Notes under the pieces: generated by a model
Databases searched by the model: none
What the model was told of the DNA's origin: nothing
What the model saw: only the letters and a program-made list of their open reading frames with translations
DNA from: a virus
Length of the DNA stretch: 30,328 bases
Virus record (IMG/VR): IMGVR_UViG_3300019377_000004
Coordinates: 1-30,328 of that record
Reading direction: 5' to 3' (one strand)
Shown: one piece after another, positions 138-28,813 of the stretch
Position numbering within the stretch: position 1 is the first letter of the stretch
Layout of the letters: the number at the start of each line of letters is the position of its first letter
Program-made: the position numbers and the translations under genes

Positions 138-173
138 TTGAGATTTCTTCCACCCCATCGGTATCGTCTGATC

Positions 174-632
174 GTGTCGAGTGATCCGGCTACGAACTCG
201 GGCTCGCGATTGAAGGCTGTCAGGAAGTCGAAAGGGCTGACCCAGCAGAAGTTAGCGAACAAGATCGGAAAGTCGAGATCACAAGTAGCTGAATGGGAAT
301 CCGGAACGCTGCCTGATCCGGAGAATCGAAGGTTGCTGGCAGACGCGCTCGAAGTCGCGCCGAAGGAACTCGGGCCTGCCTGGGATCCGGAAAGTCCGCG
401 GCCGCGTCGTCATGTAGAACAGCCGAGTCACCTCCCACCTCACTCACACGTGGCCGCCCCGCCACAGCCGTCTATAGGTGTCGCCATGGGTCCTGGAGAG
501 CAAGCCCTGTTCGACCAGATCGTCGGCGTTTGGATGCTGTGCCGGAGCGAAGAAGAGCGACACGCGCTCGTGAAGCACGTGCGCTCCTTCGTCGAGCACG
601 CGGAACGGTTCTCAAAAAAAGCGCGCCGCTGA
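174..632 (+). CDS. XRE-family helix-turn-helix regulator
   Basis: The protein of about 152 aa opens with a clear helix-turn-helix: SRLKAVRKSKGLTQQKLANK, then IGKSRSQVAEWESGTLPDPE, the Cro/CI pattern with the recognition helix around SRSQVAEWESG. A proline- and histidine-rich linker follows. The C-terminal segment of about 60 residues (GPGEQALFDQIVGVWMLCRS onward) is helical and charged and might mediate dimerisation. No LexA/CI-type S24 protease motif is visible, so RecA-stimulated self-cleavage is not supported. The start is uncertain: the frame is open from TTG 138, GTG 174 is chosen because it sits just before the domain, and neither has a ribosome binding site. It is divergent from the leftward repressor and is the first gene of the rightward regulatory-integration block. 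Confidence 0.75.
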   Translation: MSSDPATNSGSRLKAVRKSKGLTQQKLANKIGKSRSQVAEWESGTLPDPENRRLLADALEVAPKELGPAWDPESPRPRRHVEQPSHLPPHSHVAAPPQPSIGVAMGPGEQALFDQIVGVWMLCRSEEERHALVKHVRSFVEHAERFSKKARR

Positions 633-741: not shown

Positions 742-1098
742 TTGATCGAAGTGCTCGCGCTCGTACTGGCGCTACAAGAACCCGCGCCGAAAGTCGTTGA
801 ACCCTGTCGCATCTTCATCACCGAGGCCAAGGTGGATCCGGCCTGGTACACCGAACCGCGTCACGTCTCGCACCAAAAGAAGTGGTACGGCTCGAACAAC
901 TCAGCGTGGAGCGGTCTCGCGAAGAAGGCGTGGAAGCTCGACGCCGACGCCATTGTCAACGCGAACGTGCGGCATCAGCCGTCTGGATTCGCCTGGGCCG
1001 CACCGCGCGCGTCAGGCACCGCGGTGAAGTGGACGGAAGAGGGACGCCTGAAGGCGGCCGCGCTCAAGGGCGAGTGCTTCGACCGCGAAGGGAAGTAG
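742..1098 (+). CDS. Small exported-type protein of unknown function
   Basis: The 118-aa product starts at TTG 742 with a good GAGAGAGGTG ribosome binding site upstream. A short hydrophobic N-terminus (IEVLALVLALQ) could act as a weak signal or anchor, but it lacks the usual basic residues. The centre, LAKKAWKLDADAIVNANVRH, and the following segment ending in ASGTAVKW recall the small YbjQ-like or surface-associated proteins that carry a 'GADAVVNVR' pattern and aromatic-rich strands. That resemblance is by eye and weak. It is followed two bases later by a membrane protein gene, so the two are probably co-transcribed with the integrase. Its position in the lysogeny block suggests a function during lysogeny rather than in the virion. 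Confidence 0.6.
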   Translation: MIEVLALVLALQEPAPKVVEPCRIFITEAKVDPAWYTEPRHVSHQKKWYGSNNSAWSGLAKKAWKLDADAIVNANVRHQPSGFAWAAPRASGTAVKWTEEGRLKAAALKGECFDREGK

Positions 1099-1545: not shown

Positions 1546-2745
1546 ATGCCCCGCCGTGGTAAACGCATCCGGCTCGCAAAGGGCATCTTCAAGGATGCCA
1601 GCGGCATCGCGATCATCCTGCCGTCGACTGACGAGAAGGGCCGCTTCCGCCAAGAGGAACAGCGCCGGCCGGCGGACAGCAACCTCGCCAAGCTGAAGGC
1701 GTGGCGCGAGGACGAGATCAAGAAGCGGAAGGACCGCAAGAACGCCGGTCTGCTCCCCAGCGGCACGTTCGCGGCCGACGCGCTGACCTACCTCGCCGCC
1801 GTCACGGCGCTCCCCACCTATCGCCAGCGCTGCGTCGACATCGGCTATTGGGTGGCCATCTTCGGCCACCGGCGCCGCGAGAGCCTCCAGTCCCATGAGA
1901 TCCGCGCCGTGCGCGATCGCTGGCTCACCGTCGGGCCGAAGCGCGTCCAGCGGGCCCCGGCGCCGGGCCAGAAGGCCGTGTGGGTGGACATCGCCGCGCC
2001 GCTGGGCCCACAGACCGTCGCGCTGCGCCTGCGCGCCCTGGAGAACCTCTGGACGGTGCTCGACGGGAAGAAGGCGAAGAACCCCGTGCGCGACGTGCCC
2101 GAGCCGGAAGAGGCCACCGCGCGCCCCAAGGGCCTGCCCCAGCGCGTCATCGCGCAACTGCTGAAGGTGTTCCCGCCGGGCCACCCGATGACCGCCCGGC
2201 TGCACGTCATGGCCCATGTCGGGCTCGCGCAGTCCGAGCTGCAGCGCGTCGAGGCGCAGGACATCAACCTCGCGGGGCGATCGGTGTGGGTGCCGGGGCG
2301 GAAGAAGGGGCGCGGTGCGCGCGGCGGGGCGGTGCCACTCTCGCCGGCGGGCGTGGCCGCCTTTCGCGACCTGCTGAAGCTCGACGCCTGCGGATCGTTC
2401 AACACGTCGAGCCTCTGGCACTTCTTTCAACGCCACGCACGCCCGGCCGGGTTCGTCGGCCTGACGCCGTACGTGCTGCGCCACAGCCTCTTCACGGGCA
2501 TCTACCTCGCGAGTGGGGATGAGGGGGCGGTGAAGACGATCGCGCGCCATGCGGCCGCCAGCACCACGCGGCACTACACCGGCGCGGCCGCGAACCCGCG
2601 CGCGGTGGCGGCCATGGCGGCGCACACCGCGGCCGGGAAGCGCCAGGCCCGCGCAGGCCGTGCCAGAGCGGTGCCAGGTTTCGCCCCCGCACAGGCGCAT
2701 CCAGGCGCTCGTCAGCGCCGGAAGCCGCACGAAAAGACTCAATGA
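1546..2745 (+). CDS. int: Tyrosine recombinase (phage integrase)
   Basis: The 399-aa protein is a site-specific tyrosine recombinase that would integrate the phage at the adjacent tRNA-Lys site. Basic residues dominate the N-terminal 60 residues (arm-type DNA binding), a SAM-like core-binding domain follows (about 70-180), and the catalytic domain covers about 195-365. Box II reads YVLRHS (Y309, R312, H313), the third motif is ARHAAASTTRHYT with H335, and Y344 is the nucleophile. The lysine strand is GRKKGRGARGGAVPL. Box I reads GLAQSEL (226-232): the catalytic Arg normally in GLR..E is Ala228, and the usual His of HxxR is Tyr309. Some divergent integrase clades tolerate this, but activity is not certain. 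The C-terminal 40 residues are basic and low-complexity. The stop codon lies two bases before the tRNA fragment. Confidence 0.93.
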   Translation: MPRRGKRIRLAKGIFKDASGIAIILPSTDEKGRFRQEEQRRPADSNLAKLKAWREDEIKKRKDRKNAGLLPSGTFAADALTYLAAVTALPTYRQRCVDIGYWVAIFGHRRRESLQSHEIRAVRDRWLTVGPKRVQRAPAPGQKAVWVDIAAPLGPQTVALRLRALENLWTVLDGKKAKNPVRDVPEPEEATARPKGLPQRVIAQLLKVFPPGHPMTARLHVMAHVGLAQSELQRVEAQDINLAGRSVWVPGRKKGRGARGGAVPLSPAGVAAFRDLLKLDACGSFNTSSLWHFFQRHARPAGFVGLTPYVLRHSLFTGIYLASGDEGAVKTIARHAAASTTRHYTGAAANPRAVAAMAAHTAAGKRQARAGRARAVPGFAPAQAHPGARQRRKPHEKTQ

Positions 2746-3902: not shown

Positions 3903-5378
3903 CTACGGCGCCGGCTGTCGCTGGCGGTAGAAGCGAATCGCCTCCTCCGCGCCCTCGTCCGCCAACCGCCACCACTCGTCTGCGTTCGGCAGCAGGTTCC
4001 CCTTCTTGGAGATGAACCCGATGATCCGGTTGTAGAAGATCGGCACGAACCACATGAGCGCGCCGCGGCCGGCGGTGCGATCGCCCTCCGGGTTCTCGAT
4101 GGGCCGGTCGCGGTCCCACAGCCCTTCCTGGACGTAGCGCGTCAGCGCGTGGAGGAACACGTCCTCCGGTACGGTGAACGTCGGGAACGGCCGCTGCGCG
4201 GGGGGCGGAACCGGGGGCTGTGTCGGCGGCGTTCCCGGCGGCGGCTGTGTGCTGCCGAGGTGATTAACCGGGTTCATCCGGATCGAGGCCTGCGTACGCA
4301 GATCGATCGGTCCGGCGTTCGATTCCAGCCGCCACGCCGACGTGCCTGCGTTGGGGATGAGGTCATACCCCCACATCCCGCCGCCCGCCTGCCGGGCGAT
4401 CACGTCGCTCGATGGACGCCCTCCGGGACTCGTGCTCTTCCAGCACCAGCCCTCGTTCGGGAAGCTGAACACGAACTGCTCGATCAGCTTCGGCGTCCAG
4501 TGGTCGCGCAGTTCGTCTTCGTTGCCGCCGGGCGGCGGGAACTTCGCGGCGAACGCGTCGATCAGGTCCGAGTGCTTCTGTTCCAATCTCACGGGCGTCT
4601 CCTTCGGCGGTTCGACGGGCGGCGGTGGGGGCGGCTCCACCGGCGGCGGTGTGCTTGAGAACGGCCGCCGATGCGTGGACAGCCACGCCCCGCCCTCAAC
4701 GTAGCTGCAGACGAAGTAGGTGCCGCCGCTCTCCACGATGTGCGGCGGCTGGCCGCCCGGCGTGTTGAGTGAGGTGATGATGCCGGTTTCGCTGTCGAAG
4801 AGCGCGAGCGTCTCGGCCACCATGCTCTGCCCCGCCCACACGGCCCCGCCCGGCGCGGGACTCGGCAGCGCCAGGCCAGGAATCGCGCCGCGGCCGCGGT
4901 CCTGGGTGATCGGCGTGCCGTCCGCGGCGACGTAGAGGAAGCCCTGCGACGTCGGCGGCATCGCGATGGGCTGCCAGTCGTGCACCTCGCCCACGCCGGT
5001 CAGCACAATCCGGTCGTAGCGATCCGGGTCGGTCTGGATGAATAGGACCCATCCGTCGGCGTCGTCCCGCGCTATCACGGCCACCGGGCAGACGCCGTGC
5101 GTACGGCCGAAGCTCCGTGCCTGCCACGACGACGGACTGCCGAGCAACACGATCCACGACTGGCCGTCGTCGTGCCCCTGACCGATCGCGCAGATGCGTC
5201 CGCGGCGATCCGCCGCCGCGCGCAGGTAGAGCAGCGACCGCTGGACCTGGATCGCGCCGAGGGCCGCCCCGGTGGTGGCGTCCTCCGCGACCACCTCGGT
5301 GCCCCGTGCGTAGACGAACGCCACCTCGCCAGACGGCGACACCGTGACGTCGCACCAGTTCGCGCCTTGGCGGATCAT
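3903..5378 (-). CDS. Large modular protein: beta-propeller-like head, Pro-rich linkers, phage tail-associated C-terminal domains
   Basis: The 491-aa protein starts at ATG 5378, overlapping the previous stop (ATGA). Residues 1-235 form repeated beta-strand units (VSPSGEVAFVYARG, ADRRGRICAIGQG, IARDDADGWVLFI), which suggests a beta-propeller. A first proline-rich linker lies at about 241-260. A domain with NEGWCWKSTSPGGRPSSD and GYDLIPNAG follows; this 'K-S/T-S-P..P-S-D..A' pattern recurs in phage tail-tip or receptor-associated proteins. A second Pro-rich stretch lies at about 374-395, and a final helical domain of about 95 residues ends the chain. There is no signal peptide. Its place between tail genes and the lysis genes fits a virion adhesin or host-recognition protein. 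The exact function is not recognised. Confidence 0.65.
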   Translation of the reverse strand: MIRQGANWCDVTVSPSGEVAFVYARGTEVVAEDATTGAALGAIQVQRSLLYLRAAADRRGRICAIGQGHDDGQSWIVLLGSPSSWQARSFGRTHGVCPVAVIARDDADGWVLFIQTDPDRYDRIVLTGVGEVHDWQPIAMPPTSQGFLYVAADGTPITQDRGRGAIPGLALPSPAPGGAVWAGQSMVAETLALFDSETGIITSLNTPGGQPPHIVESGGTYFVCSYVEGGAWLSTHRRPFSSTPPPVEPPPPPPVEPPKETPVRLEQKHSDLIDAFAAKFPPPGGNEDELRDHWTPKLIEQFVFSFPNEGWCWKSTSPGGRPSSDVIARQAGGGMWGYDLIPNAGTSAWRLESNAGPIDLRTQASIRMNPVNHLGSTQPPPGTPPTQPPVPPPAQRPFPTFTVPEDVFLHALTRYVQEGLWDRDRPIENPEGDRTAGRGALMWFVPIFYNRIIGFISKKGNLLPNADEWWRLADEGAEEAIRFYRQRQPAP

Positions 5379-5800
5379 GGCTTCTTCGTCACCGGCGGCG
5401 TGGTGATGGTGATGATGGTGAGATTCGTCGGCACGCCCGGCGGCAGAATCACCGGCCCGGTGCCGCGGTCGACCGTGAAGTGCACGACCAGCCACGCCGT
5501 GCACTTCTCCAGCACGGTCGCATCGAGGTTGCACGCCCGCACCTGCACGCTGTGCGCACCGCTCTTGAGATCCGCGGGCAGTTTGTGCCGATAGGTGGTC
5601 GCGTCCACCTTCTCGTACGCGCCGAGCAGCGGCACGGGCTGGTTGTCGACCCAGTAGTCGAAGTACCCCAGGCGCACGCCGTCATGGTTCCACTGCACGC
5701 GCGCTTCCGACGGGTTGATGATCGTCACGCCCGACTGCGCCGCCGCGCCGCCGGCGCTGAGCACGAGCAGCAACGTGTAAATGCATAGTCTTCCTCGCAT
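5375..5800 (-). CDS. Secreted Ig-like beta-sandwich protein
   Basis: The 141-aa product has a signal peptide (MRGRLCIYTLLLVLSAGGAA, cleavage near AAAQ) and then one beta-sandwich domain of fibronectin-III or Ig type (RVQWNHDGVRLGYFDYWVDN, LKSGAHSVQVRACNLD). Two cysteines may form a disulfide. The C-terminus is threonine- and proline-rich and encoded by a short ATC/ACC-type repeat. The first 119 bases overlap the 3' end of the M15-type endolysin gene in another frame. The 3' end overlaps the next gene as ATGA. A signal peptide inside a late operon suggests export to the periplasm, perhaps with the lysis genes, or attachment to the modular protein encoded next. No family was recognised with certainty. 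Confidence 0.65.
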   Translation of the reverse strand: MRGRLCIYTLLLVLSAGGAAAQSGVTIINPSEARVQWNHDGVRLGYFDYWVDNQPVPLLGAYEKVDATTYRHKLPADLKSGAHSVQVRACNLDATVLEKCTAWLVVHFTVDRGTGPVILPPGVPTNLTIITITTPPVTKKP

Positions 5801-6812: not shown

Positions 6813-7337
6813 ATGCCTGAGCGATGGCTGCCCGTGCCTTATTTCTCGCGCTATGAAGTGTCCGACCTTGGTCGAGTGCGAACGTGGTTCAACACTCGTA
6901 ACGTTAAGCGAGTCGCGCCGACTCTGCTCACACCGTGGCGCAAGACCGGACAGCGCGGCTTGGACTCCGATTACCGCCTCGTCGTTCTCCGGCGAGACGG
7001 GAAGTCCTTCAAACGCTACGTGCATCGTCTGGTGCTTGAGGCGTTCGTCGGGCCCGCTCCTGCCGGCAAGGTCGCCAGACACTTCCCTGATCGCACGCCG
7101 TCGAATTGCACCCTGAGCAATCTCCGTTGGGGCACCATGATCGAGAACGCCGCCGACAAACTTGCCCAGGGCAGCCGCGTTGGACGCCCGCGTGGAACTC
7201 ACTGCTGCAACGGACATCGTCTCGACTCGATGAACACGCTCATGACGCGCGACGGGCGCGGCAACCTGTATCAGGCTTGCCGAACATGCGGGCGTGAACG
7301 AATGCGTGCGCATCGGGCTAAGTCGCATCAACGGTAA
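6813..7337 (+). CDS. HNH homing endonuclease (NUMOD4 + HNH + zinc-finger tail)
   Basis: The 174-aa protein starts with a NUMOD4-type DNA-binding motif (W5 LPVPYFSRYEVSDLGRVR, residues 5-23). An HNH_3 core follows: H71 in VHRLVLEAFVGPAP, H90 in ARHFPD, N98 and N103 in SNCTLSNLRWGT, then EN..D. A C-terminal CC..GH.....N...CRTCGR segment (131-160) looks like a zinc finger. Free-standing endonucleases of this kind cut intron- or gene-less alleles and spread by repair. It is encoded antisense inside the late operon, between a small tail gene and a tail-fibre gene, and its last 20 bases overlap the fibre gene tail to tail. An extended -10 lies directly upstream. No intron splice structure was seen. 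Confidence 0.92.
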   Translation: MPERWLPVPYFSRYEVSDLGRVRTWFNTRNVKRVAPTLLTPWRKTGQRGLDSDYRLVVLRRDGKSFKRYVHRLVLEAFVGPAPAGKVARHFPDRTPSNCTLSNLRWGTMIENAADKLAQGSRVGRPRGTHCCNGHRLDSMNTLMTRDGRGNLYQACRTCGRERMRAHRAKSHQR

Positions 7338-13695: not shown

Positions 13696-15258
13696 TCACA
13701 ACGCCTCCAGGAGTTCGTCACGCGGCGGCGCGCCGCTCAGGATGCGGTTGATCTCGTCCTGAATGCGCTGTTGGATGTCACTGCGGCCGAGCGGCCCGGC
13801 CATCTGCACGCCGGGGGCGAGATTGAGGCCAGTATTAGACGGACCAACGGTCGCGTTTCCCGCGCCGCCGCCGGGATGCAGCGGCACAAAGTTCAGATTG
13901 TCCGACCACGACGGGTTCGCGCCTTCGAAGTCGGTGATGAGGTCGATCTTCCGGCCGTTGATGACGACGTCGCCCGCGTAGGCTTTCTCGAATCCTGGGA
14001 CGTTGCGGAACGCCTTCGAGACCGCAGACTCCATCTCCGCGCGCGACATGCCTGGGTGCGCGTAGGACTTCAGGAAGGCGTAGGCCCCCTGGATGTCGGC
14101 CGGCGCATCGCCCATCTCGCCACCAGCGCCGGTGCCCCCGCCGCTGTCCGGCTGCCAGCCGATCTGGGGATTGCTGCCGCCCGCATTGATGAGGAAGTCC
14201 ACGGGCACGCGGCCCTCAGGATCCTCGCGTGCCCCCACCCACGCCTTGTCGCCCTGGACGTCGAAGACCTTGTAGCCCGCCGCTTCCATCGCGGGCTGGA
14301 TGTGCTGCCGGAACCACGCCTCAGCTCCAGCCTTGCTCGTGTCGGTCAACTGCGGCGCGGCCTGGGCGGCGGCCGCGAATGCATCCTTCGCGCTGGTCGA
14401 CGGATCCTGCGCGCGATTGAAATCGAAACCCGAGAACGGCAGCCCGCCACCGGTGCCGCCGGGTGATGCGCCCGCCGGCGTCGCGCCTGCTGGCGGCGTC
14501 GCCGCCGCCGCGTTGGCGGCCGCGGTCTCTGCCCGATCGGCCGGGGCCTGACTCGCAAACGCATCGAGCACGTAGGCGAGCGAGTCCTGGCCCATCCAGC
14601 GATCGCCGTCCTGCCAGCCCTGCCCGCGCACGATCTGGTCGAGATACTCGGGCGTGATGTCGCGGCCGAACGCGTCCTGGTGCGCCTGGCTGATGATCTG
14701 GCGCGCGTCCTCGATCGCGAAGTCGGTCATCGCCGTCTCCGCGTTCTTCGCGAAAAGCGCCGCCACCGCGCCCGCCACGCCGCCGACGACATGCCCGGCG
14801 CCGGGGACGATGCTGCCGCCAATCGACGCGCCGGTCGCGGCCGACCCGCCCACGCTCGGCGAACCCTCCATCCGGCGCGTGTAGGGATCGTCGTACTCGT
14901 CCATCAGGCCGTAGCCGCGCTGCGGGTTGTACCGGTGCGGCGGCGTCGCCGGGGTGCCCGGCGTCGTCGGCGTGGCAGACGGCGGCTGATAGACCGGCTC
15001 CTGCCGCTCGTCGGCGAACCGGTCGCCGCTGAAGGCGTTCGTGGGCGCGTCCGGCTGGTCGACCGCGTTCGTACGCCCACCCGGCCCGTTCAGCAGCTCG
15101 CGCGTCTGCTGCGGCGGCGGGGGCGTGCGGGGGCGCGCCTGCATCTGGGGCGGCGGAGGCGGCGGCTGTTGCGGCTCTTCCAGCGCGTCGAGCAGGGCTT
15201 GCCGCTCGCCATCGTCACCGGTGCGTGCGTAGGACGAAAAGGGGTTGCGGAGTGCCAT
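13696..15258 (-). CDS. Large internal virion protein with glycine-zipper membrane segment
   Basis: The 520-aa protein starts MALRNPFSSYARTGDDGERQ. A proline-rich region (about 28-110) is followed by a glycine zipper (about 133-170, GSAATGASIGGSIVPGAGHV then VGGVAGAVAALF) able to span a membrane. A helical region follows (EDARQIISQAHQDAFGRDIT, PEYLDQIVRG), then an Ala/Gly/Pro linker. A C-terminal alpha/beta domain of about 200 residues holds GYKVFDVQGDKAWVGARED and FEKAYAGDVVINGRKIDLIT, which could be a small enzymatic or binding fold. The overall plan is that of a channel-forming ejection protein. A divergent moron operon begins just upstream of its start. Confidence 0.7.
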   Translation of the reverse strand: MALRNPFSSYARTGDDGERQALLDALEEPQQPPPPPPQMQARPRTPPPPQQTRELLNGPGGRTNAVDQPDAPTNAFSGDRFADERQEPVYQPPSATPTTPGTPATPPHRYNPQRGYGLMDEYDDPYTRRMEGSPSVGGSAATGASIGGSIVPGAGHVVGGVAGAVAALFAKNAETAMTDFAIEDARQIISQAHQDAFGRDITPEYLDQIVRGQGWQDGDRWMGQDSLAYVLDAFASQAPADRAETAAANAAAATPPAGATPAGASPGGTGGGLPFSGFDFNRAQDPSTSAKDAFAAAAQAAPQLTDTSKAGAEAWFRQHIQPAMEAAGYKVFDVQGDKAWVGAREDPEGRVPVDFLINAGGSNPQIGWQPDSGGGTGAGGEMGDAPADIQGAYAFLKSYAHPGMSRAEMESAVSKAFRNVPGFEKAYAGDVVINGRKIDLITDFEGANPSWSDNLNFVPLHPGGGAGNATVGPSNTGLNLAPGVQMAGPLGRSDIQQRIQDEINRILSGAPPRDELLEAL

Positions 15259-15273
15259 TAAATCACCCGATGT

Positions 15274-15302
15274 TTGACGCTATGTCATATGGTGTGTATG
15301 AT
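15274..15302 (+). promoter_or_regulatory. Sigma70-type promoter of the moron pair
   Basis: TTGACG (15274-15279), an exact 17-nt spacer and TATGAT (15297-15302) give five of six matches in each box with optimal spacing. It is the best promoter in the window. Transcription should start near 15309, only about six bases before the ATG at 15315, so the mRNA would be almost leaderless. It points away from the flanking late gene and would be active in a lysogen if not repressed. Confidence 0.75.
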
Positions 15303-15311
15303 GCACACACC
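15291..15311. promoter_or_regulatory. Dyad operator over the moron promoter -10
   Basis: GGTGTGT-ATGATGC-ACACACC is a perfect inverted repeat with 7-bp arms. It covers the -10 box and the transcription start. The next gene encodes a ribbon-helix-helix protein, a family that usually binds short dyads in its own promoter. Autorepression is therefore the simplest reading. Binding itself is inferred. Confidence 0.7.
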
Positions 15312-15314
15312 GTC

Positions 15315-15470
15315 ATGACCCGCACGAACGTCCATCTCACCGAACACCAGCTCGCCGCGCTCCGAGCGATCGCCAAAGCGTCCGGTCTGTCCGTCGCGGA
15401 AGAAATCCGCCGGGCGATCGATGCATACGTGAAATCGAACCGCCCACGCCAAAAGGACCAAACTCGATGA
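15315..15470 (+). CDS. Ribbon-helix-helix (CopG/Arc-type) regulator
   Basis: The 51-aa protein reads MTRTNVHLTEHQLAALRAIA, then KASGLSVAEEIRRAIDAYVK. This is the compact RHH fold: beta strand TRTNVHL, helix A from HLTEHQLAAL, the turn ASGLSVAE, and helix B EEIRRAIDAYV. RHH proteins bind DNA as dimers through the strand. The ATG at 15315 is chosen because the strand starts there and a strong promoter with an overlapping dyad ends just before it. It has no ribosome binding site. It overlaps the following secreted protein gene as ATGA, so the two are co-translated. This is an independent plus-strand unit within the minus-strand late operon. Confidence 0.85.
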   Translation: MTRTNVHLTEHQLAALRAIAKASGLSVAEEIRRAIDAYVKSNRPRQKDQTR

Positions 15471-15955
15471 AACTGCTGCTCGCGCTCGCATGCTTCCTGG
15501 CCGTGCCAACGCTCGCCACCGCGCAGGGGCCGACGATCTTCTGTTGGGCATTTCCCGAAGACCCCGACGTGTTGATGGTCTGCAACGACACGCCTGTCTT
15601 GCGTCCAAAACTCGTGAACTTTGGCGAAGGCTCCATCGGGCTCAGCGCGACGGGCCAGGATGCGCAGGTCTGGTTGCGGCTCACCAACTCCGCTGACGTC
15701 GACCAGCCGGGCATTACCTACACCATCTTTCCCGATGGCCAGCCGCCTGTGACGCGCACGTTGACGCTCTACACCGCCGACCACGGCCCGACCAACATCG
15801 GCATCCCGCTGCATCTCGACCCGGTGCTCGCCGGTCAGCATCTCGCGTTCGCCGTCGAGGTCACGTTCCCGAAAGGCCGTGGCCTCGCCGGGCTCACCTT
15901 GCGCGATGCCTCGGGCCACGCGCTGGCCGTGCCCGCGGAGAGTTCGCGACGGTGA
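15467..15955 (+). CDS. Secreted beta-rich protein of a moron (unknown function)
   Basis: The 162-aa product begins with a good signal peptide (MKLLLALACFLAVPTLATAQ, cleavage near TAQ-G). The mature chain of about 142 residues is mostly beta: SIGLSATGQDAQVWLRLTNS, GITYTIFPDGQPPVTRTLTL and HLAFAVEVTFPKGRGLAGLT. It carries two cysteines near the N-terminus (FCWAFPEDPDVLMVC) that could form a disulfide. There is no lipobox. It is translated from the RHH gene by a 4-base overlap and has its own regulated promoter unit. It would be exported in a lysogen and may change the cell envelope (phage exclusion, adhesion, immunity), but no family was recognised. It converges with the next tail gene, 20 bases away, with no terminator visible. 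Confidence 0.75.
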   Translation: MKLLLALACFLAVPTLATAQGPTIFCWAFPEDPDVLMVCNDTPVLRPKLVNFGEGSIGLSATGQDAQVWLRLTNSADVDQPGITYTIFPDGQPPVTRTLTLYTADHGPTNIGIPLHLDPVLAGQHLAFAVEVTFPKGRGLAGLTLRDASGHALAVPAESSRR

Positions 15956-15975
15956 CACCATCCGAGGGCCTGTCA

Positions 15976-16563
15976 TCACACGCTCGTCGTGCTGAACATG
16001 GCCCACCCGTCGACACCATCCGTGCCGACGCCCGGCGAATAGATCAGGGGCAGCCACACGCCACTCTGTTGCAAGTAGAACTCTGGATAGCTGGTCGTCG
16101 CGTCGGCGGAGACGAAGATCTCGGTGCCCGCCGGCACGGAGGCGGCCATGCGATCTTGAATGACAATGGTTTGCTGGCTTCGCGGGTCTTTCCGCACCAG
16201 CAACAGGTCACCGTATTGCACGTCGGCCTGACGGATGCCGTAGAGGTTGTACGACACGCTCGCCGGCGAAATGATGGAGACGAACTGCACGCCCGCGGCA
16301 ATCTCCAAAGGGACACCCTGGAGGCCGCCTGTGCCGTCGACCACGAACATCCGTGCGGTCTTATTCGTGCGGGTGTTCATGGCGAGCGAGAGACGTTGCG
16401 TGCGCACGCGCGTCGCGGTCACGTCCCCATGCGTCCCGTCCGCGTGGTGCTGGACGCCCCACGCCGCCGCGATCTGCGCTTGCATCCCGCTCAGCGTGCG
16501 CCGCACGCTCTCGCTCAGTTCTGGCAGCGACGAACCCGGCAAGAGGCTCGATAGGCTGAACAT
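15976..16563 (-). CDS. Tail fibre or tail-tip protein with HHADGTHG motif
   Basis: The 195-aa protein starts at ATG 16563, overlapping the nozzle stop as TGATG. The N-terminus is helical (LPELSESVRRTLSGMQAQIA), then AWGVQHHADGTHGDVTATRV, a motif common in tail fibre and tail-tip proteins of environmental phages. The rest is beta (AGVQFVSIISPASVSYNLYG, DRMAASVPAGTEIFVSADAT). It probably attaches to the nozzle encoded upstream. The ends are compact and there is no signal or membrane segment. Function beyond virion part is inference. Confidence 0.7.
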   Translation of the reverse strand: MFSLSSLLPGSSLPELSESVRRTLSGMQAQIAAAWGVQHHADGTHGDVTATRVRTQRLSLAMNTRTNKTARMFVVDGTGGLQGVPLEIAAGVQFVSIISPASVSYNLYGIRQADVQYGDLLLVRKDPRSQQTIVIQDRMAASVPAGTEIFVSADATTSYPEFYLQQSGVWLPLIYSPGVGTDGVDGWAMFSTTSV

Positions 16564-18563
16564 CAGATTTGCCCCTCCACGCCGACACGCAGCCCGATCG
16601 CATCCACGGCCCACGCCGCCGAACTCGCGGGCGACACGTCGTCATCGACCACGAGCTCGATGTACATCGCGTCGGCCGCGCGCGCATCGTCTTCCACCTT
16701 CACGAGTTCGCGTGTCTCGCTCGCCGTGGCCGCCGGGAGCGCCGCCGTGCCGCTGCGCGTGGCCGCGCCGAAGTCGCTGATGATGTCGACGGCGAGCGCG
16801 CGATTCGCCGGCGTGCCGAGCACGTAGGCTTGCTGGATGCGCCCCTTGTAGCCGTTCCCGCCCGGCGCAAACGCCGCCGTCTTGACGCGGCCGATATACG
16901 TGCTGGCGACGGCCCCGCGGTCGGTGGTGGTGCCGTCCGCGTCGTACTTGATGAGCGGCCCATCCGGCAGCCCGGTCACCCACTTCTGCCCCACGTAGGG
17001 CTTGAGGTCGAGCGACATGGGGTTGCCGATGGTGTTCGCGAACATCACCGCGCAGGCGGCATCCGCCGCGCCCTCCGTGTGCACCGCCCAGCCGCCGCGC
17101 ACGGCGCCGGTGTCATCCCGGCGCCCGTAGCGCGCGTGGAAGATCAGCTTCTTGTTGGGCGCCGTCGCCACGCCGGTGGACAGCCACCATTGCACCTGGC
17201 GCTTCTCGCCGTGCCACACGCCAAACGGCACGATGGCCGACGCCGCCAGATTGACGGTGTCCCACACCACCTCGATATCGCGCCCGAGATACTCCAACCC
17301 GCGCGGCCCGAGGCGATACGGCCCGCGCCGCGAGAGGAAGTACAGACACGGGAAGCCGGACTCGTCTTCGCCCTGCACGATCGACTTGTGATTGAGCGCG
17401 CCGAGGGCTTTGGTCACGGCCACCGGGCGATACGGGAAGTCCGCGTCGCCGGTGCGCTGCAGTTCGTAGATGTGTGAGAGCTTAAAGACAAACACCGAAC
17501 TGCCAAGGATCGCGCCGCCTGTGATGCCGCCGCCGTCGCTGCGGTCGAGGTCTAGGCGATTCGTCGATGGCACGCGCTCGTCATCCGCCACGCTGTAAGC
17601 CGGAGGCGTCGTGCCGAGCACCGGCGTCCACATCACCGCGCTCGCCATGCTCGCCGTCTCCCACGACGAGAGCAGCAGCAGCCGATCCTCATCCGCCAGC
17701 AGATACTTCGGCGAGATCGGCACCGTGAAGTAGTCGGCATCGGTCGGGAACCCGCTGAACGTGGGGGCCACCGTCGAGTAGAGCGCCGGGTCCGCACTGT
17801 CATCGAGCGTGGTGGTCGCCACCACCGCCGCCGTCAGCAGGTAGTAGTTCACGCCGTCAGGCGAACCGAACAGCACCCAATGCGTTTCGCTCTCGCTGGG
17901 GAGGGCCGGTCGCGTGACGCGCGCGGCGGTCCCGCTGCCGCTCGGGGTGAAACTCACCGCCGGGGAGAGTTCGCTGCGCACGAACGGCGACACGCTCGTA
18001 TTGGCCCACTGCACCTTGTAGTAGCGCAGCGTGGCCGCGTACGACCCGGCCCCGGTATTGGCGACCGTCGCCGCCGCCGGGGTCGCGAGGCCCACACGTC
18101 GCAGCACCGTGCCGTCCCAGACATGCAGCCGATCGACAGCGGTATTCCCCGCTACGAACAGCTTGCCGTTGAGCGACACGCCGTTCATGGTCAACAGATC
18201 CGACCCGGCGGCCGACCACGCATCCGTCACCGTCACCGCGGTCCAGTGATTGCCGCCGGACGGCACCACGCGCCCCATGATCGGCGGTGATTCAGCGCTG
18301 ACGCCGTAGAGCTCCGCCGTCCCCTCATCCGCCGTCGGTGTATGCCGGATCAGCGCGAAGAGGGTGGCGGACGCGCCCCAGATCTCCGTGCCGATGGGAT
18401 TGGTCCCGCCCTGGCGCCGCTGCGCGAACTTCGTCGTCGTCCACTCGACGTTCTGGGCGATCTGACACTGGTTGTCGGCGATGTCCTGCGGCGGATCGGT
18501 GTCGTTGAGGCCGCCGGTCAGGTCCTTGATCCAGAGCAGGCCGCTCTTGTCGGGGCTGATCAT
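16563..18563 (-). CDS. Tail nozzle / hub protein, beta-propeller (P22 gp10-like)
   Basis: The 666-aa protein begins around MISPDKSGLLWIKDLTGGLN then DTDPPQDIADNQCQIAQNVE. This 'GGLn..d.p..l.dnq....Nve....g.l..R.G' opening is typical of podovirus nozzle proteins (P22 gp10, T7 gp12). Repeated beta motifs (LHVWDGTVLRRVG, VWHGEKRQVQWWLS) fit a beta-propeller. A fibronectin-like domain lies at about 160-260. It would form the hexameric lower part of the short tail. The start is set to ATG 18563, which overlaps the adaptor stop (ATGA); a GTG six bases upstream is also open. No tape measure is present, so the tail is short. Confidence 0.8.
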   Translation of the reverse strand: MISPDKSGLLWIKDLTGGLNDTDPPQDIADNQCQIAQNVEWTTTKFAQRRQGGTNPIGTEIWGASATLFALIRHTPTADEGTAELYGVSAESPPIMGRVVPSGGNHWTAVTVTDAWSAAGSDLLTMNGVSLNGKLFVAGNTAVDRLHVWDGTVLRRVGLATPAAATVANTGAGSYAATLRYYKVQWANTSVSPFVRSELSPAVSFTPSGSGTAARVTRPALPSESETHWVLFGSPDGVNYYLLTAAVVATTTLDDSADPALYSTVAPTFSGFPTDADYFTVPISPKYLLADEDRLLLLSSWETASMASAVMWTPVLGTTPPAYSVADDERVPSTNRLDLDRSDGGGITGGAILGSSVFVFKLSHIYELQRTGDADFPYRPVAVTKALGALNHKSIVQGEDESGFPCLYFLSRRGPYRLGPRGLEYLGRDIEVVWDTVNLAASAIVPFGVWHGEKRQVQWWLSTGVATAPNKKLIFHARYGRRDDTGAVRGGWAVHTEGAADAACAVMFANTIGNPMSLDLKPYVGQKWVTGLPDGPLIKYDADGTTTDRGAVASTYIGRVKTAAFAPGGNGYKGRIQQAYVLGTPANRALAVDIISDFGAATRSGTAALPAATASETRELVKVEDDARAADAMYIELVVDDDVSPASSAAWAVDAIGLRVGVEGQI

Positions 18564-19249
18564 CGCCACGACCCGTCAGCCGGATACCACGCGCCCAATC
18601 GTGACCGGCCGCCGATCAGGTCGCGCCGCTCGTTCGTCGAGTCCGCAAGATCCCAAAGGAACGCATTCATGTTGCGCAGCTCGAGATCGACGTCCTGCCG
18701 CAACGCGACGTAGCGATCATCGTCCATCCGGCGCCACTCGTCCGCCTGCGCGCCGAGCGCGAGCACGTGATGGAAGTCCTCCGGCAGGAGCGGCTCGTCG
18801 GTGTCGGCCGTCATGTCCGCCAGGCTGGCGGTGTAGTCGACGAGATACGCGTAGGCCCCAGCGGGCGTCGGCCAGAACTGGATCTGGAGCAAGCCGCTCG
18901 ACGACGATCCCAGAAAGACGTACACGACGGGGATGCCGTCAATGTCGAGGGCGGGATCCTGCTGGCGCAGCCACGTCAGATCACGGCGCTTCAGGGGAAT
19001 GTCGTTCGTCGTGTCCGTGAGGCCGTTGATGCGCTTCACGCTCGACGCGAACGCGTAGGTATGAATGTTCGCCGTCGAGGTGAGCGTCAGCTGCCGGTCG
19101 CGCAGCAGTCGCGTGAACTGCGGTTTCGTGAGGATGCGCCGATGCCAATCATTAATCGCTTCCTTGATGCGCGTACGCGGCTCGGTTGTCGTGGCCGTCG
19201 ACAGATTGAGCGCCTTGAGCGCCCGATTCTGCAATTCCAAGAAGGTCAT
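18560..19249 (-). CDS. Head-tail adaptor protein
   Basis: The 229-aa protein starts MTFLELQNRALKALNLSTAT and continues RTRIKEAINDWHRRILTKPQ. It has N-terminal helices that pack on the portal, then a beta domain (LLQIQFWPTPAGAYAYLVDY) and a helical C-terminus. This is the layout of the phage adaptor family (SU10/T7 gp11-like). It would form a ring between portal and nozzle, which is encoded next. The ATG at 19249 overlaps the YkgJ-like stop (ATGA); an upstream extension of the open frame is a shadow of that gene. Family assignment is by eye and by gene order (portal, capsid, adaptor, nozzle). Confidence 0.78.
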   Translation of the reverse strand: MTFLELQNRALKALNLSTATTTEPRTRIKEAINDWHRRILTKPQFTRLLRDRQLTLTSTANIHTYAFASSVKRINGLTDTTNDIPLKRRDLTWLRQQDPALDIDGIPVVYVFLGSSSSGLLQIQFWPTPAGAYAYLVDYTASLADMTADTDEPLLPEDFHHVLALGAQADEWRRMDDDRYVALRQDVDLELRNMNAFLWDLADSTNERRDLIGGRSRLGAWYPADGSWR

Positions 19250-19683
19250 GACGTCCACCCGTGCCGCAGCGCCCACCGCTGCGCTTTTCGCTGCTGCAAC
19301 GCGTAGGCGCGCCGCACGTCTCTCGACTGAAACACCCGATCCACGAGGTTGCGGCACTCGCCGTCCGGGCCTTGCTCGTAGGGCTCGCTCGCCGCATCCG
19401 GCCGGTAGCAGCCGAATCTGCGACACGCATAGGGCCGCACCTCGTAGACCGTGCACACCGCGCGTCCCGCGGCGTCCTGCGCGAGCAACGGACACGGCCG
19501 CGCCTGGAGCTGCACGAACCCGGGCTGCGCGCTCCTGAACCGCGTGGTGAGGTCCGGCCGCCGTGCCAGGAGGAGGTCACGTTCGGCCGGGGTCATCACC
19601 ACCGCTGGCGTGAGACGGCAGCAACTGCCCTCACGCTGGCAATGCCAGTCCGCCGCGATCGGCCGCAGCGGAATCGCGCGCAT
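19246..19683 (-). CDS. YkgJ-family cysteine-cluster protein
   Basis: The 145-aa protein carries the YkgJ pattern: CQREGSCCRLTP (CxxxxxCC) near the N-terminus, then CPLLAQDAAGRAVCTVYEVR, then P and YACRRFGC, and one more Cys (EC) downstream. The eight or so cysteines would bind zinc or an Fe-S cluster. YkgJ proteins are found in bacteria, with unclear biochemical function. Here the gene sits between capsid and adaptor genes, linked by an ATGA overlap to the adaptor and two bases from its upstream neighbour, so it is expressed with head proteins. A maturation or host-modification role is possible. The call is based on the motif, not on a search. Confidence 0.85.
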   Translation of the reverse strand: MRAIPLRPIAADWHCQREGSCCRLTPAVVMTPAERDLLLARRPDLTTRFRSAQPGFVQLQARPCPLLAQDAAGRAVCTVYEVRPYACRRFGCYRPDAASEPYEQGPDGECRNLVDRVFQSRDVRRAYALQQRKAQRWALRHGWTS

Positions 19684-21051: not shown

Positions 21052-22014
21052 CTAGGTGATGACCGTGATCACGCCGAGCCGGCGCGGGTTGTTGATGGAG
21101 AGATTGCCGGCCGTGTACACCTGCACGACTTCGGCGGTCTGGTTCGCGGGCCGGATGGCCGGTTCCGCCTTCGCCCAGCGGAGGTAGCGGAATTTGAGGT
21201 TCCGTCCGTTCAGACAGAACATCGTCGCGGCCGGGCAGTCCTCGTCGAACGTGACCTTGGCGCCCTTGAACTTGAGCACCTCGTTCTTGAATCCGCCGTC
21301 GCCGGACTCTTTCGAGGTGAAGCGCTCGTTGACCGTCAGCGTCGACTCGTAGCCTTCGAACGAGGTCTGATCGGAGACGAACCACTCGGGGTGCTCCTCC
21401 GCCGCGCCCTTCGAGCACGAGTTGTAGATGGACCGCATCGCGCCGCGCAGGTTGTCGAACGCGTTGGTGGTCTTCGTGCCGAGCGTCTGGCGATTGCGCC
21501 AGAACGGGAACGTCGCGCGGTTGATGCCGCCGACGGTGCCGGTCGTGGGCGTGGACGAGACGAGCAGCGCGAGGCCGCCGATGTCCTTGCCGCCGTTGCC
21601 GGTGCCGTCCGAGTACATCTGCCGGTTCATCGTCGCGAAGTGCGACTGCTTGCCGTTCTCGACCTTCGCATCGATCAGGGCAAACTTTGCCTCTTCGCCC
21701 ATCGCCCGCAGCTGCTCGATCTGCGAGTAGGAGATGGTCCCGGCGTTCTCTTTCCAGTTGAACCGCGCCGCGTCGAAGACGTCAACGGGCGTGACATTGA
21801 GCGGGTCGTAGCCGGAGTGCGACCCGAAGGTCGTGTTCTCGGCGTACATGAGCGTTTCCTCGATGAGGGCGCCACCGGGCTCTTTCGTGAACCCGCCGCC
21901 TTCCTTGAGGAGCTTCAGAAGGAGCTGACTGGTGAAGACGTTGTCTTCGGGCTTGCGGCGGACGACGCGTTCGAAGACGCTTGCCGTCAGCTGGCCAATA
22001 TTTGGATCGGGCAA
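21052..22014 (-). CDS. Major capsid protein
   Basis: The 320-aa protein matches a widespread major capsid family by its markers: LMYAENTTFGSHSGYDPLNV, then a WKENAGTISYSQIEQLRAMG E-loop/spine segment, MYSDGTGNGGKDIGGLALLV and TPTTGTVGGINRATFPFWRN. It also has ATMFCLNGRNLKFRYLRW near the end. 'IYSDGTGNGGKQIGGLQLLV' and 'GTVGGINRATWSFWRN' are near-invariant in this family, which is expected to adopt the HK97 fold. The start is TTG 22014 with an AGGAG site 7 bases upstream. That site lies in a 7-bp hairpin overlapping the scaffold stop, so translation is probably coupled to the scaffold gene. Confidence 0.93.
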   Translation of the reverse strand: MPDPNIGQLTASVFERVVRRKPEDNVFTSQLLLKLLKEGGGFTKEPGGALIEETLMYAENTTFGSHSGYDPLNVTPVDVFDAARFNWKENAGTISYSQIEQLRAMGEEAKFALIDAKVENGKQSHFATMNRQMYSDGTGNGGKDIGGLALLVSSTPTTGTVGGINRATFPFWRNRQTLGTKTTNAFDNLRGAMRSIYNSCSKGAAEEHPEWFVSDQTSFEGYESTLTVNERFTSKESGDGGFKNEVLKFKGAKVTFDEDCPAATMFCLNGRNLKFRYLRWAKAEPAIRPANQTAEVVQVYTAGNLSINNPRRLGVITVIT

Positions 22015-25250: not shown

Positions 25251-27281
25251 CTAGTTCACGGTCGGCGCGCCGCCGCGCATCTGGTGCTGATTGATCGGCT
25301 CGGCGGTCGGCACCGCGCCGGGATGAGGCTGTTGCACAGGCGGTGCCGTCCCTGGCGCGCCGGGCGCCTGCTGCTGCTGCGCCACGAGCCCCGGCGGCAT
25401 CTCGATCCCGATCTGCGCGAGGATCGCCAACACCATCGGGTTGCTCAGATCCTCGGCCTTGAACGACAGATTGATCTTCGGCGGCTCCGGCTTCGGTTCC
25501 GCCGGCGGCGTCTCCACCACGATCTTGTCCGGGTCCAGGTTGTGCTTCGTCAGCAGCGCCTTCAGGAGCTCCGTGCGGCGCACGTTCGGATCGCGGCCGA
25601 TCAGGTTGTAGAGATTCGCGGCCTGCCGGCGCTCGACATCCGCATCGAGGCGCAGCGCGCTATCCGGCTTCGCGCTGAACACGAACTCGCCCTGCACGGC
25701 CTTGCGGTCCCACTGCTGGAGCGCCTTCTGTCCATCGGGCCCGACGATTTCGACAAAGCCTGCATCATCCTTGAACTGCTGCAGCAAGCTCGCGAACTTC
25801 GCGGCGCCGGTCGTGAACCACCGCAGAAACCGCTTGCGCTCCTTGTCGAGGCGCACGTCGGATACCGCCGTCGCGTCGCGCACTTCCGTCGCGGTGCGGC
25901 CTTCGGTCTCCACGGTCGCGGGCCGGATGGCCCAGGTGTCGCGCAAGTCCTTCTCGCCGATCTCGTTGAACTGATAGTTGTCGCGCGGGAACATCGGCAA
26001 CGAGACGATGCCGATCTGCTCGTTGCCGTTCCCGTCGACGCCGATGCGCGACATGATTTCGCCGCGCTCCATCTTTTCGAGCGTCTCCTTCGTGAGTAGA
26101 TCGCGGTTGTACCACTGCATGGGCAGCGCGCGGTCGCGGAACTGCGCCATCTGCGTGCGTCCCAGGGAAATCTCCTCGCTGAGCGGTCGCGCGATCCCGA
26201 CATCGCTCACGGGATAGGCGCTGCCCGGCAGGAACCGCAGCGTCAGCGGGTGAATCGGGAACCCCTCCATGCCGTGCAGCTTCCCGTCGTTCGGCCGGCC
26301 CTCCTGGCCGTCGCCCAGCCACTGATACGGGGAGTTCCGGTACCTCACCGGCTTGTTGTGGCCCTTGATCAGCACCAGCTCCTTGAGCTGATTCGGCAGC
26401 GGGTCCTCGTCAGGCGCGAAGACGGCAGCCTTCAGCCAGATCTCGTAGCCCTCCACCTGCTTCAGCGCGCCGCCCTCACGCGTCGGACGCTCTTCGCTCG
26501 AGAGCGTCTCGCGGGGCGTCTGGATGGTCGCGGCGAAGTCGTCCGGCAGGTTCAGCTCCTTCTTCGCCTGCGTGAAGTCCATGACGAACTTCATCCCCAG
26601 CCACGCGGCACGGTCGAAGCGGCTGCCGACGAAGTCCACCGGGATGAGCAGATCCTCCGTCGGAAACTCGTTCCAGAAGTACTGCTCGTGCGCGAGGTAG
26701 GGCTCGTCCTGCAGTTGCGGCTCGCCGGTCATCGGGTCGACGGCCTGCACCATCCGCGGCTGCTGCGTCTGCGGGTCCACCGGGGGCGCACCCGTCATCG
26801 GATCCGGCGGCGCGGGCTGCAGCACCGGCACCTGCCGCGTGCGAATGTCCGCCACGTAACCGATCTTGCTCGCCGCGATGCCGCAGAGCAGCACATCCGT
26901 CGCCATCTCGTCGATCAGCGTCGGCGCGTCGGCGTTTTCCTCGCCGAGCTCGTGATTGACCGCGGCCGCGAACGTCGGCACCGCCGCCGCGCTCGCCGGG
27001 TTCTTCGGCTTCAGATGCACTTCCGGCACCTGGAACACGAGCTGCGATTTCTTCTGCTCGACGTAGCTGTATTCGAGCGGCACCTGCACGGCGTGATCGC
27101 GCGGGGTGACGTCGAGCACCTTGCCCATGTAGGCGCGCACGTTCTTTTGCCAGCCGATCTTCAGCTGATCGACGACGTGTTCACTCGCGGTGATCCGATT
27201 CATCCACTCGCCCACGAGCGTCTCCTCACGGGCGGGATCCGGCGGCATGCCTTCGGTCGCGGCGATCTGTTCTTCAGCCAT
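25251..27281 (-). CDS. Portal protein (large, P22-type podovirus)
   Basis: The 676-aa protein forms the dodecameric DNA entry ring. The start is ATG 27281 with AAAGGT upstream. Features include the wing and clip region (QLKIGWQKNVRAYMGKVLDV, PLEYSYVEQKKSQLVFQVPE), a stem/crown segment (DNYQFNEIGEKDLRDTWAIR, GRTATEVRDATAVSDVRLDK) and a C-terminal coiled part (LDADVERRQAANLYNLIGRD). The 'TATEVRDAT' pattern is characteristic of the large portals of P22-like phages, where it precedes the barrel. The last 90 residues are Pro/Gln-rich. Its size fits a podovirus. It follows TerL in the operon, the usual order. Confidence 0.9.
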   Translation of the reverse strand: MAEEQIAATEGMPPDPAREETLVGEWMNRITASEHVVDQLKIGWQKNVRAYMGKVLDVTPRDHAVQVPLEYSYVEQKKSQLVFQVPEVHLKPKNPASAAAVPTFAAAVNHELGEENADAPTLIDEMATDVLLCGIAASKIGYVADIRTRQVPVLQPAPPDPMTGAPPVDPQTQQPRMVQAVDPMTGEPQLQDEPYLAHEQYFWNEFPTEDLLIPVDFVGSRFDRAAWLGMKFVMDFTQAKKELNLPDDFAATIQTPRETLSSEERPTREGGALKQVEGYEIWLKAAVFAPDEDPLPNQLKELVLIKGHNKPVRYRNSPYQWLGDGQEGRPNDGKLHGMEGFPIHPLTLRFLPGSAYPVSDVGIARPLSEEISLGRTQMAQFRDRALPMQWYNRDLLTKETLEKMERGEIMSRIGVDGNGNEQIGIVSLPMFPRDNYQFNEIGEKDLRDTWAIRPATVETEGRTATEVRDATAVSDVRLDKERKRFLRWFTTGAAKFASLLQQFKDDAGFVEIVGPDGQKALQQWDRKAVQGEFVFSAKPDSALRLDADVERRQAANLYNLIGRDPNVRRTELLKALLTKHNLDPDKIVVETPPAEPKPEPPKINLSFKAEDLSNPMVLAILAQIGIEMPPGLVAQQQQAPGAPGTAPPVQQPHPGAVPTAEPINQHQMRGGAPTVN

Positions 27282-27292
27282 CGGTCTACCTT

Positions 27293-28813
27293 TCACGCGC
27301 CGTACTGATGCCGGCGCACGTTGTTCACGCCGAGCACGTGGCGCGACGTCTCTGCGGCCGCCGCCTGCTGGCGGAGATACCCCACCGTGCCCGGCGGGTA
27401 GATGTGTTGTTCGGGGACGTGCGCGCCGATCGGCGCTTTGAGCCCGGAGACGAGAAACCGCAGCGCGTCGAGCGGGTGATCGAACCCGTGCGTGTCGAGG
27501 TCGTTATCGTCGTGCTCGTCCACCGACGCTTCCCCGAACGCGCGAATCAGCTGCTTGCAGTCCGGATGCACCTTCAGGAACGGCGTGCCGTCAGGATGGT
27601 TGCGCAGCCACGCGCGGAGGCGCGCCCAGCCGTTCACGCGATCGCGCTCGCCTTCGACGCAGGGCACGCCGTGCTTGCCGAAGGTGCTGAGGATCGTCTC
27701 GACGCTCTCGTGTCCAGTCCCGGCGGCCATCTTCGGGTCGGCAAACGTGCGCCGGATCATCAGCCCGCGCGCGCGGTTGTATTTCACGATCTCAGCGGCC
27801 ACTTCGCGCGCGATCAGCTTGTCCTTATTGCGGCCGTTGAAGGTGTACTCATGTTCGATGTAGAGGTGCCCGTCGTCGCCGTAGACCGCCCACAGGCACA
27901 CGCCCTCGTCGGTCATGTATCCCCAATCGATGCCGCAGAAGCGTGGCACGCCGTTGGGGAACGGCCGGAACTCCATGACGTGCGCGCGGCGTGGCATTCC
28001 GTCGTCGAGCGGCGGCTTGTCGGACTTGCGGAACTCGCTGAAGAACCCGTCTTCCGACGCGTCCCAATCGCCGTCGCGATACGCGGCGCGCAGCCCGGGC
28101 GGCAGGCGGTTCAACTGCTTCTGATATTGCTCCTGATTCAGATAGGGGTTGTCCGCGGGCAGCGCCGGGATGTAGTCGTAATCGTCCGGTGTGTAATCCT
28201 CGTCCTCGTCGACCGTGAGGTCCTTCAGGATCCACCGCCGCTTCGCCCACGCGCCGATGTGCTTCTTCCCGGTCGCCGGGTTCGTGCCGCCGCCGACGCG
28301 CGGGATGAGGCCAGGGATCGTGGTGCGCGCGCACGTCGAGATCGAGAGATACATCTCCTCGGTGAAGGTCACGATCTCATCGATTTCGATGCGATCGTAC
28401 TCCGCCGACAAGTACTGCTCGATGTCCTGTTCGTGCGTGCAGTGGCCAAACTCGACGAGGCTGCCCGTCTTCGGGAAATGCACGACGCCCGCGCCGATCT
28501 CATTCGGCTTGAAGATAGCCTCAACCCCTTGTGCCTCCTCCGGCACGAAACGGAGGTGCGAGCGCTGCATCTCCTTCTTCATGCGGCGCAAGATCAAGCA
28601 CTTCATCTTCGGCACGATCAGGCAGGGGCCGAAGCAGTCGAACCGCAGCGCCTTCGACTTTCCACAACCCTTCGAGCCGCCGTACAGCGGGTACGGCGCC
28701 ACGCTCTGGTGGTACTGCACCTGTTTCGCGAACGGCTCGTACACGACGCGCCCGTTCACCACGAACTTGTAGGTGGACGGGTCGACGCCGGGCGGGACAG
28801 GAGTGGCGATCAT
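27293..28813 (-). CDS. terL: Terminase large subunit
   Basis: The 506-aa protein is the packaging motor with ATPase and nuclease domains. Walker A is GGSKGCGKS (45-53), and Walker B is RIEIDE with D145 and E146 (141-146). The nuclease domain carries CGIDWGY (D296), FADPK (D359) and DHPLDALRF (D445, H446, D449), the usual acid triad positions. The order and spacing match terminases of podoviruses. The ATG at 28813 overlaps the preceding gene's stop (TGATG). A distinct small subunit was not found in the window; the zinc-finger gene upstream occupies the usual small-subunit position. Confidence 0.95.
   Translation of the reverse strand: MIATPVPPGVDPSTYKFVVNGRVVYEPFAKQVQYHQSVAPYPLYGGSKGCGKSKALRFDCFGPCLIVPKMKCLILRRMKKEMQRSHLRFVPEEAQGVEAIFKPNEIGAGVVHFPKTGSLVEFGHCTHEQDIEQYLSAEYDRIEIDEIVTFTEEMYLSISTCARTTIPGLIPRVGGGTNPATGKKHIGAWAKRRWILKDLTVDEDEDYTPDDYDYIPALPADNPYLNQEQYQKQLNRLPPGLRAAYRDGDWDASEDGFFSEFRKSDKPPLDDGMPRRAHVMEFRPFPNGVPRFCGIDWGYMTDEGVCLWAVYGDDGHLYIEHEYTFNGRNKDKLIAREVAAEIVKYNRARGLMIRRTFADPKMAAGTGHESVETILSTFGKHGVPCVEGERDRVNGWARLRAWLRNHPDGTPFLKVHPDCKQLIRAFGEASVDEHDDNDLDTHGFDHPLDALRFLVSGLKAPIGAHVPEQHIYPPGTVGYLRQQAAAAETSRHVLGVNNVRRHQYGA

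Follow-up and report, generated by a model that had tools for sequence, protein, structure and literature searches.

The locus lies in a 30,328 bp virus record of IMG/VR, the whole of which was analysed and is referred to here as the window. It consists of a short two-gene unit on the plus strand, placed between two genes of the virion operon that are both on the minus strand. The features of the unit and of its flanks are as follows.

13696 to 15258, minus strand: flanking virion-operon gene o13696, whose start is 15 bp from the -35 hexamer
15259 to 15975, no strand assigned: inserted segment of 717 bp, read as a moron, between the virion genes o13696 and o15976
15274 to 15279, plus strand: -35 hexamer TTGACG, read in the sequence
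15297 to 15302, plus strand: -10 hexamer TATGAT, read in the sequence, with a spacing of 17 bp
15291 to 15311, no strand assigned: perfect 21-bp dyad GGTGTGT-N7-ACACACC (half-sites 15291-15297 and 15305-15311), presumed operator of the RHH protein
15315 to 15470, plus strand: gene for an RHH protein of the CopG/Arc type, 51 aa (PF01402; ATG at 15315, stop at 15468-15470)
15454 to 15457, plus strand: AGGA, Shine-Dalgarno-like, inside the RHH gene and 9 nt 5' of the ATG of the exported protein
15467 to 15955, plus strand: gene for a predicted exported protein of 162 aa, an orphan (ATG at 15467, stop at 15953-15955; leader MKLLLALACFLAVPTLATAQ)
15976 to 16563, minus strand: flanking virion-operon gene o15976 (listed as 15976-16614; likely start 16563)

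The insertion, the gene order, the promoter, the dyad and the RHH domain are established at the level of sequence. A sequence-only reading had described a TTGACG-17-TATGAT promoter, which is indeed present at 15274-15302, and a perfect dyad over its -10, which we recovered at 15291-15311 and which also covers the predicted transcription start site. It had further described a second gene coupled to the first through ATGA, and reading of the sequence confirmed that the stop of the RHH gene and the start of the exported-protein gene overlap in this manner. Its placement of a plus-strand unit between minus-strand virion genes is likewise correct for both flanks. The exported-protein gene and o15976 are convergent, with a gap of 20 bp, and the GGTGA Shine-Dalgarno of o13696 lies at the edge of the insertion.

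The source is in all likelihood a tailed phage of temperate lifestyle, as judged from its gene content, since genes for an integrase and for an HTH_3 regulator are present. Its record is classed as linear, so that it is perhaps incomplete. After these plus-strand genes, the minus strand of the window carries a long late region, and the landmarks used here are the following.

138 to 632, plus strand: HTH_3 regulator, by profile match
1546 to 2745, plus strand: phage integrase, by profile match
21052 to 22014, minus strand: major capsid protein (PHROG 9953, E 2e-63)
25251 to 27296, minus strand: gene in the portal position, named by place and without a family match
27293 to 28813, minus strand: terminase of the late region

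The capsid protein shares 28-35% identity with its counterparts in Myxococcus phages Mx8/Mx9, Bradyrhizobium phage ppBjS10J-1, Stenotrophomonas phage BUCT555 and a small number of further phages, and a pattern search found no relative of it in bacterial genomes. Other genes of the window deserve mention in their own right. A second plus-strand gene within the minus-strand virion region, at 6813-7337, encodes a NUMOD4/HNH_3 homing-type endonuclease; it has TATAAAT just 5' of its ATG and no clear Shine-Dalgarno, its GC3 is low (0.69) and its codon score poor. Close to the HTH regulator and the integrase, 742-1098 (plus strand) encodes a 118-aa protein with a weak, sub-cut-off match to YbjQ_1 (E 8e-4). 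Within the head-gene region, 19246-19683 (minus strand) encodes a CxxCxxCC zinc/iron-chelating domain protein, with PF03692 just over the cut-off and a 72% identical counterpart in the related locus L013.

To place the unit in context, relatives gathered from IMG/VR by their capsid, terminase and o16563 proteins were compared at the corresponding junction. The most informative is L013 (on the same contig as L005), whose TerL and o16563 proteins are 76% and 69% identical to those of the window. There, only 8 bp separate the homologues of o15976 and o13696 (TGA-GGTGACCG-ATG, within the abutting-gene junction TGAGGTGACCGATG), as compared with a gap of 717 bp in the window. The two homologues are also near-adjacent in L012, the homologue of o13696 directly follows o16563 in L003 and L019, and no such unit appears on the maps of L014, L023, L039, L041, L059, L061, L080 and L081; some of these cassette-free contigs are near-copies of each other, and so not all of them are independent. 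This comparison leaves aside L029, L034, L035, L048, L056, L082 and L083, which are too short or have spurious ORFs that confuse their maps, and also the relative L002, whose capsid protein is 94% identical but whose contig stops short of the junction. Because the flanks abut in L013 and the unit is absent from the readable junctions of the relatives, we conclude that the 717 bp are an insertion, and because GGTGA ahead of o13696 is common to L013 and the window, its edge can be placed just upstream of that motif.

These observations bear out the claim of a stand-alone insert in the virion operon, namely, one that is antisense, has its own promoter and is missing from relatives with readable junctions. 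They also bear on the possibility that the exported protein is produced late or is associated with the virion, with the RHH protein acting as a local regulator of virion genes or as a roadblock to leftward late transcription. The position of the unit inside the virion operon, with the dyad some 33-53 bp upstream of the start of o13696, would suit this explanation; however, the unit is on the opposite strand to the operon and is missing from relatives that retain the virion genes, and we regard it as highly improbable. As a separate observation on leader-bearing products of the late region, small proteins with Sec-like leaders lie beside late genes both in the window (5375-5800, minus strand) and in L013 (16900-17267); they are alike by eye and might constitute an exported family of that region.

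Morons are defined by comparison of operons and are usually expressed independently of the operon (PMC2629481). Here the comparison of 8 bp in L013 with 717 bp in the window agrees with the operon-comparison part of this definition; as for expression, the unit faces against the operon and has a consensus-like promoter to itself. Two properties that are common in morons, although outside the definition quoted, were not found: there is no terminator-like site 3' of 15955, and the GC of the exported-protein gene (0.661) shows no composition break from the window (0.665). The proposal that this is a moron thus stands as regards an inserted unit with its own promoter, RHH gene and likely operator, but not as regards an own terminator or a deviant exported gene. 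Since the unit occurs once and has no homologue, the operator, the coding pair and the function lack the comparative support that the insertion has.

The promoter matches the consensus at 10 of 12 positions with a spacing of 17 bp, this being a sigma-70-like consensus that may not be that of the host. Neither strand of the window has another promoter of this grade. Under a first-order Markov model, 0.1 such promoters are expected per strand by chance, and approximately 0.01 per strand when a perfect 7-bp dyad within the promoter is also required; shuffles gave an expectation of 0.17 for the -35/-10 pattern, both strands together. The dyad alone is common and not significant, as perfect 7-bp dyads occur in 73 of 865 pieces of 70 bp from the window (8%). 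The promoter segment (15259-15314) has a GC content of 0.446 (45%) in a genome of 66% GC. From its position on the promoter, the dyad is likely the operator of the RHH protein. A partly fixed version of this operator has one exact match in IMG/VR, in L072, which is within a coding sequence, has no RHH gene nearby and was dismissed as a chance occurrence. A promoter followed by a short ORF and a leader-bearing ORF was found nowhere but in the window when all fetched loci were scanned (2.3 Mb, counting both strands and with loci partly overlapping).

The first product was correctly recognised as an RHH protein: RHH_1 (PF01402) matches residues 3-40 of its 51 with 32.1 bits, over the Pfam cut-off of 20.5 (E = 1e-7). 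A search of 43 records found an RHH gene above the cut-off in the window alone. Matches in phages and plasmids are weak, as are those to Arc-like PHROGs (E 0.02-0.05), and RHH-like genes of the related loci L069 and L070 are weak and come without such an exported-protein partner (the neighbours of L071 being left out). In L070, the weak RHH-like ORF adjoins an ORF at 69-1484 that resembles TROVE/Ro60 proteins, a name given by look only. No Shine-Dalgarno pairing precedes the RHH start, whose anti-SD energy of +0.6 is the weakest of 28 starts scored, with the caveat that the next one, o20306 (+0.3), was entered at a wrong start. Given this, and given that the -10 ends at 15302 and transcription is predicted to start at about 15309, some 6 nt 5' of the ATG, the RHH mRNA is probably leaderless.

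An RHH gene in first place, an overlapping second gene and an operator-like dyad in the promoter are the usual layout of type II toxin-antitoxin systems. It could accordingly be asked whether the unit is an addiction-like module, in which the RHH protein serves as antitoxin and as autorepressor, its partner being the toxin. Weak matches of the RHH protein to VapB/RelB antitoxin models and to VapB26 point in this direction; however, these antitoxin matches are far below the cut-off, the tail of approximately 11 residues beyond the RHH core is too short for the usual toxin-binding tail, and the partner carries a Sec-like leader and matches none of the toxin families of Pfam, NCBIfam and PADLOC. 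We consider such a module very unlikely.

The 162-aa protein begins with the Sec-like leader given above, of the cleavable type as judged by a crude rule and inspection, after which there are two cysteines, at 26 and 39, and no further obvious membrane segment; from these traits, its site of action would be periplasmic or extracellular. No relatives of it were found in IMG/VR, GTDB genomes, phage or plasmid collections or the PDB, and no family match in Pfam, PHROGs, NCBIfam or PADLOC. Nor did the related phage loci, gathered before the last collection round, yield a homologue. As these searches were pattern-seeded or used a single sequence, remote relatives may be missed. Single-sequence AlphaFold models were uninformative (mean pLDDT 39-40 in two models), and the label of beta protein that it had received came from the look of its sequence and is unproven.

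Codon scores, trained on the other genes of the phage, strongly favour the plus frame for the exported ORF (+44.7) and do so weakly for the RHH gene (+4.5), whose GC is 0.609 as compared with 0.665 for the window. An antisense ORF of 264 aa over the unit was rejected with a score of -46.5. The weak RHH score and the lack of a homologue of the second protein in the collections searched are what would be expected if the insertion were chance or degenerate DNA with ORFs that are not both functional. Against this, the strong codon signal of the second ORF, the RHH_1 match, and an intact promoter, dyad, overlap and leader, all within 700 bp, make this explanation extremely improbable.

We favour, with moderate confidence, a self-contained transcription unit, or moron, that is antisense between two adjacent virion genes, with probable autorepression by the RHH protein. 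The unit would likely work as follows. First, host sigma-70 RNA polymerase would start at the 15274-15302 promoter in a phage that has newly entered or integrated. Second, a nearly leaderless mRNA would yield the RHH protein and the Sec-exported protein, the latter translated through the stop/start overlap and the internal AGGA. Third, RHH dimers would bind in pairs at the 21-bp dyad, which spans the -10 and the start site, and would turn the promoter off, in the way that Arc acts on the arc-ant operon of P22. A burst of exported protein on entry, and then steady low-level production in the lysogen, is predicted because the promoter would fire without RHH protein as the DNA enters and would then be closed by it. 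Fourth, during lytic growth, leftward late transcription would run antisense through the unit and oppose it.

What the exported protein would do outside the cytoplasm is the least certain part. Most tentatively, it may alter the envelope such that other phages are excluded; this role in superinfection exclusion at the envelope is a guess, made first because envelope-acting prophage genes often do so. Alternatively, the protein may serve host fitness, for instance in stress, surface or nutrient functions. Nothing in its sequence is specific to phage exclusion, and morons of this type have varied and fast-changing functions (PMC2629481). The observations fit this role and exclusion alike, and we deem this alternative unlikely. 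It is also tempting to speculate that the pair is the first representative seen of a class whose leaderless RHH autorepressor gives a pulse of an exported protein as the DNA enters, such that the envelope is closed to competitors immediately, with low but steady maintenance thereafter in the lysogen; this we think decidedly unlikely.

The sequence-only reading knew of no named system with this pair. As far as we searched, this is true of the pair as such; for the layout, however, there is a named counterpart in phage P22, the immI region or 'ant moron' (mnt, arc, ant, sieA). This closest analogue likewise forms a unit of its own among virion genes, between 16 and 9, is led by an RHH repressor gene (Arc, 53 aa) and has a 21-bp operator inside a promoter shared with the downstream gene (arc/ant promoter at 14793-14821, Arc operator at 14798-14818). 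The immI region has been termed a moron, and such regions are in rapid flux (PMC2629481, whose reference list includes a paper on autogenous regulation by arc). The differences are equally clear. The downstream gene of P22, ant, encodes a 300-aa antirepressor rather than an exported protein; arc starts approximately 40 bp after its promoter and has no ATGA coupling to ant; in P22 there are also mnt, for a second repressor, the antisense RNA sar and a terminator; and arc-ant is co-directional with genes 16 and 9, whereas the present unit opposes its virion genes. Moreover, BLASTP found no similarity, and indeed no alignment, between the RHH protein and Arc.

Plasmid autorepressors of the CopG type share the placing of the RHH gene first in its operon. 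CopG of pMV158, a minimal RHH protein, represses its own promoter at a pseudo-symmetric site; its operon controls a replication initiator and has no exported product. As for the output, HK97 gp15 and P22 SieA are expressed from prophages and interfere with superinfection, a role that for the present unit is conjecture. HK97 gp15 is membrane-bound and SieA is an inner-membrane protein, whereas the protein described here has a cleavable-type leader, no further obvious membrane segment and no sequence relative that we could find. On present evidence, the unit is best regarded as an orphan variant of a P22 arc-ant-like plan with a different output, and not as a new class. If confirmed, this would mean that a distant phage group had evolved or reused the arc-ant plan with an exported protein as output, and it would offer a simple, testable two-gene unit with which to study lysogenic conversion at the envelope in a phage lineage that has received little study.
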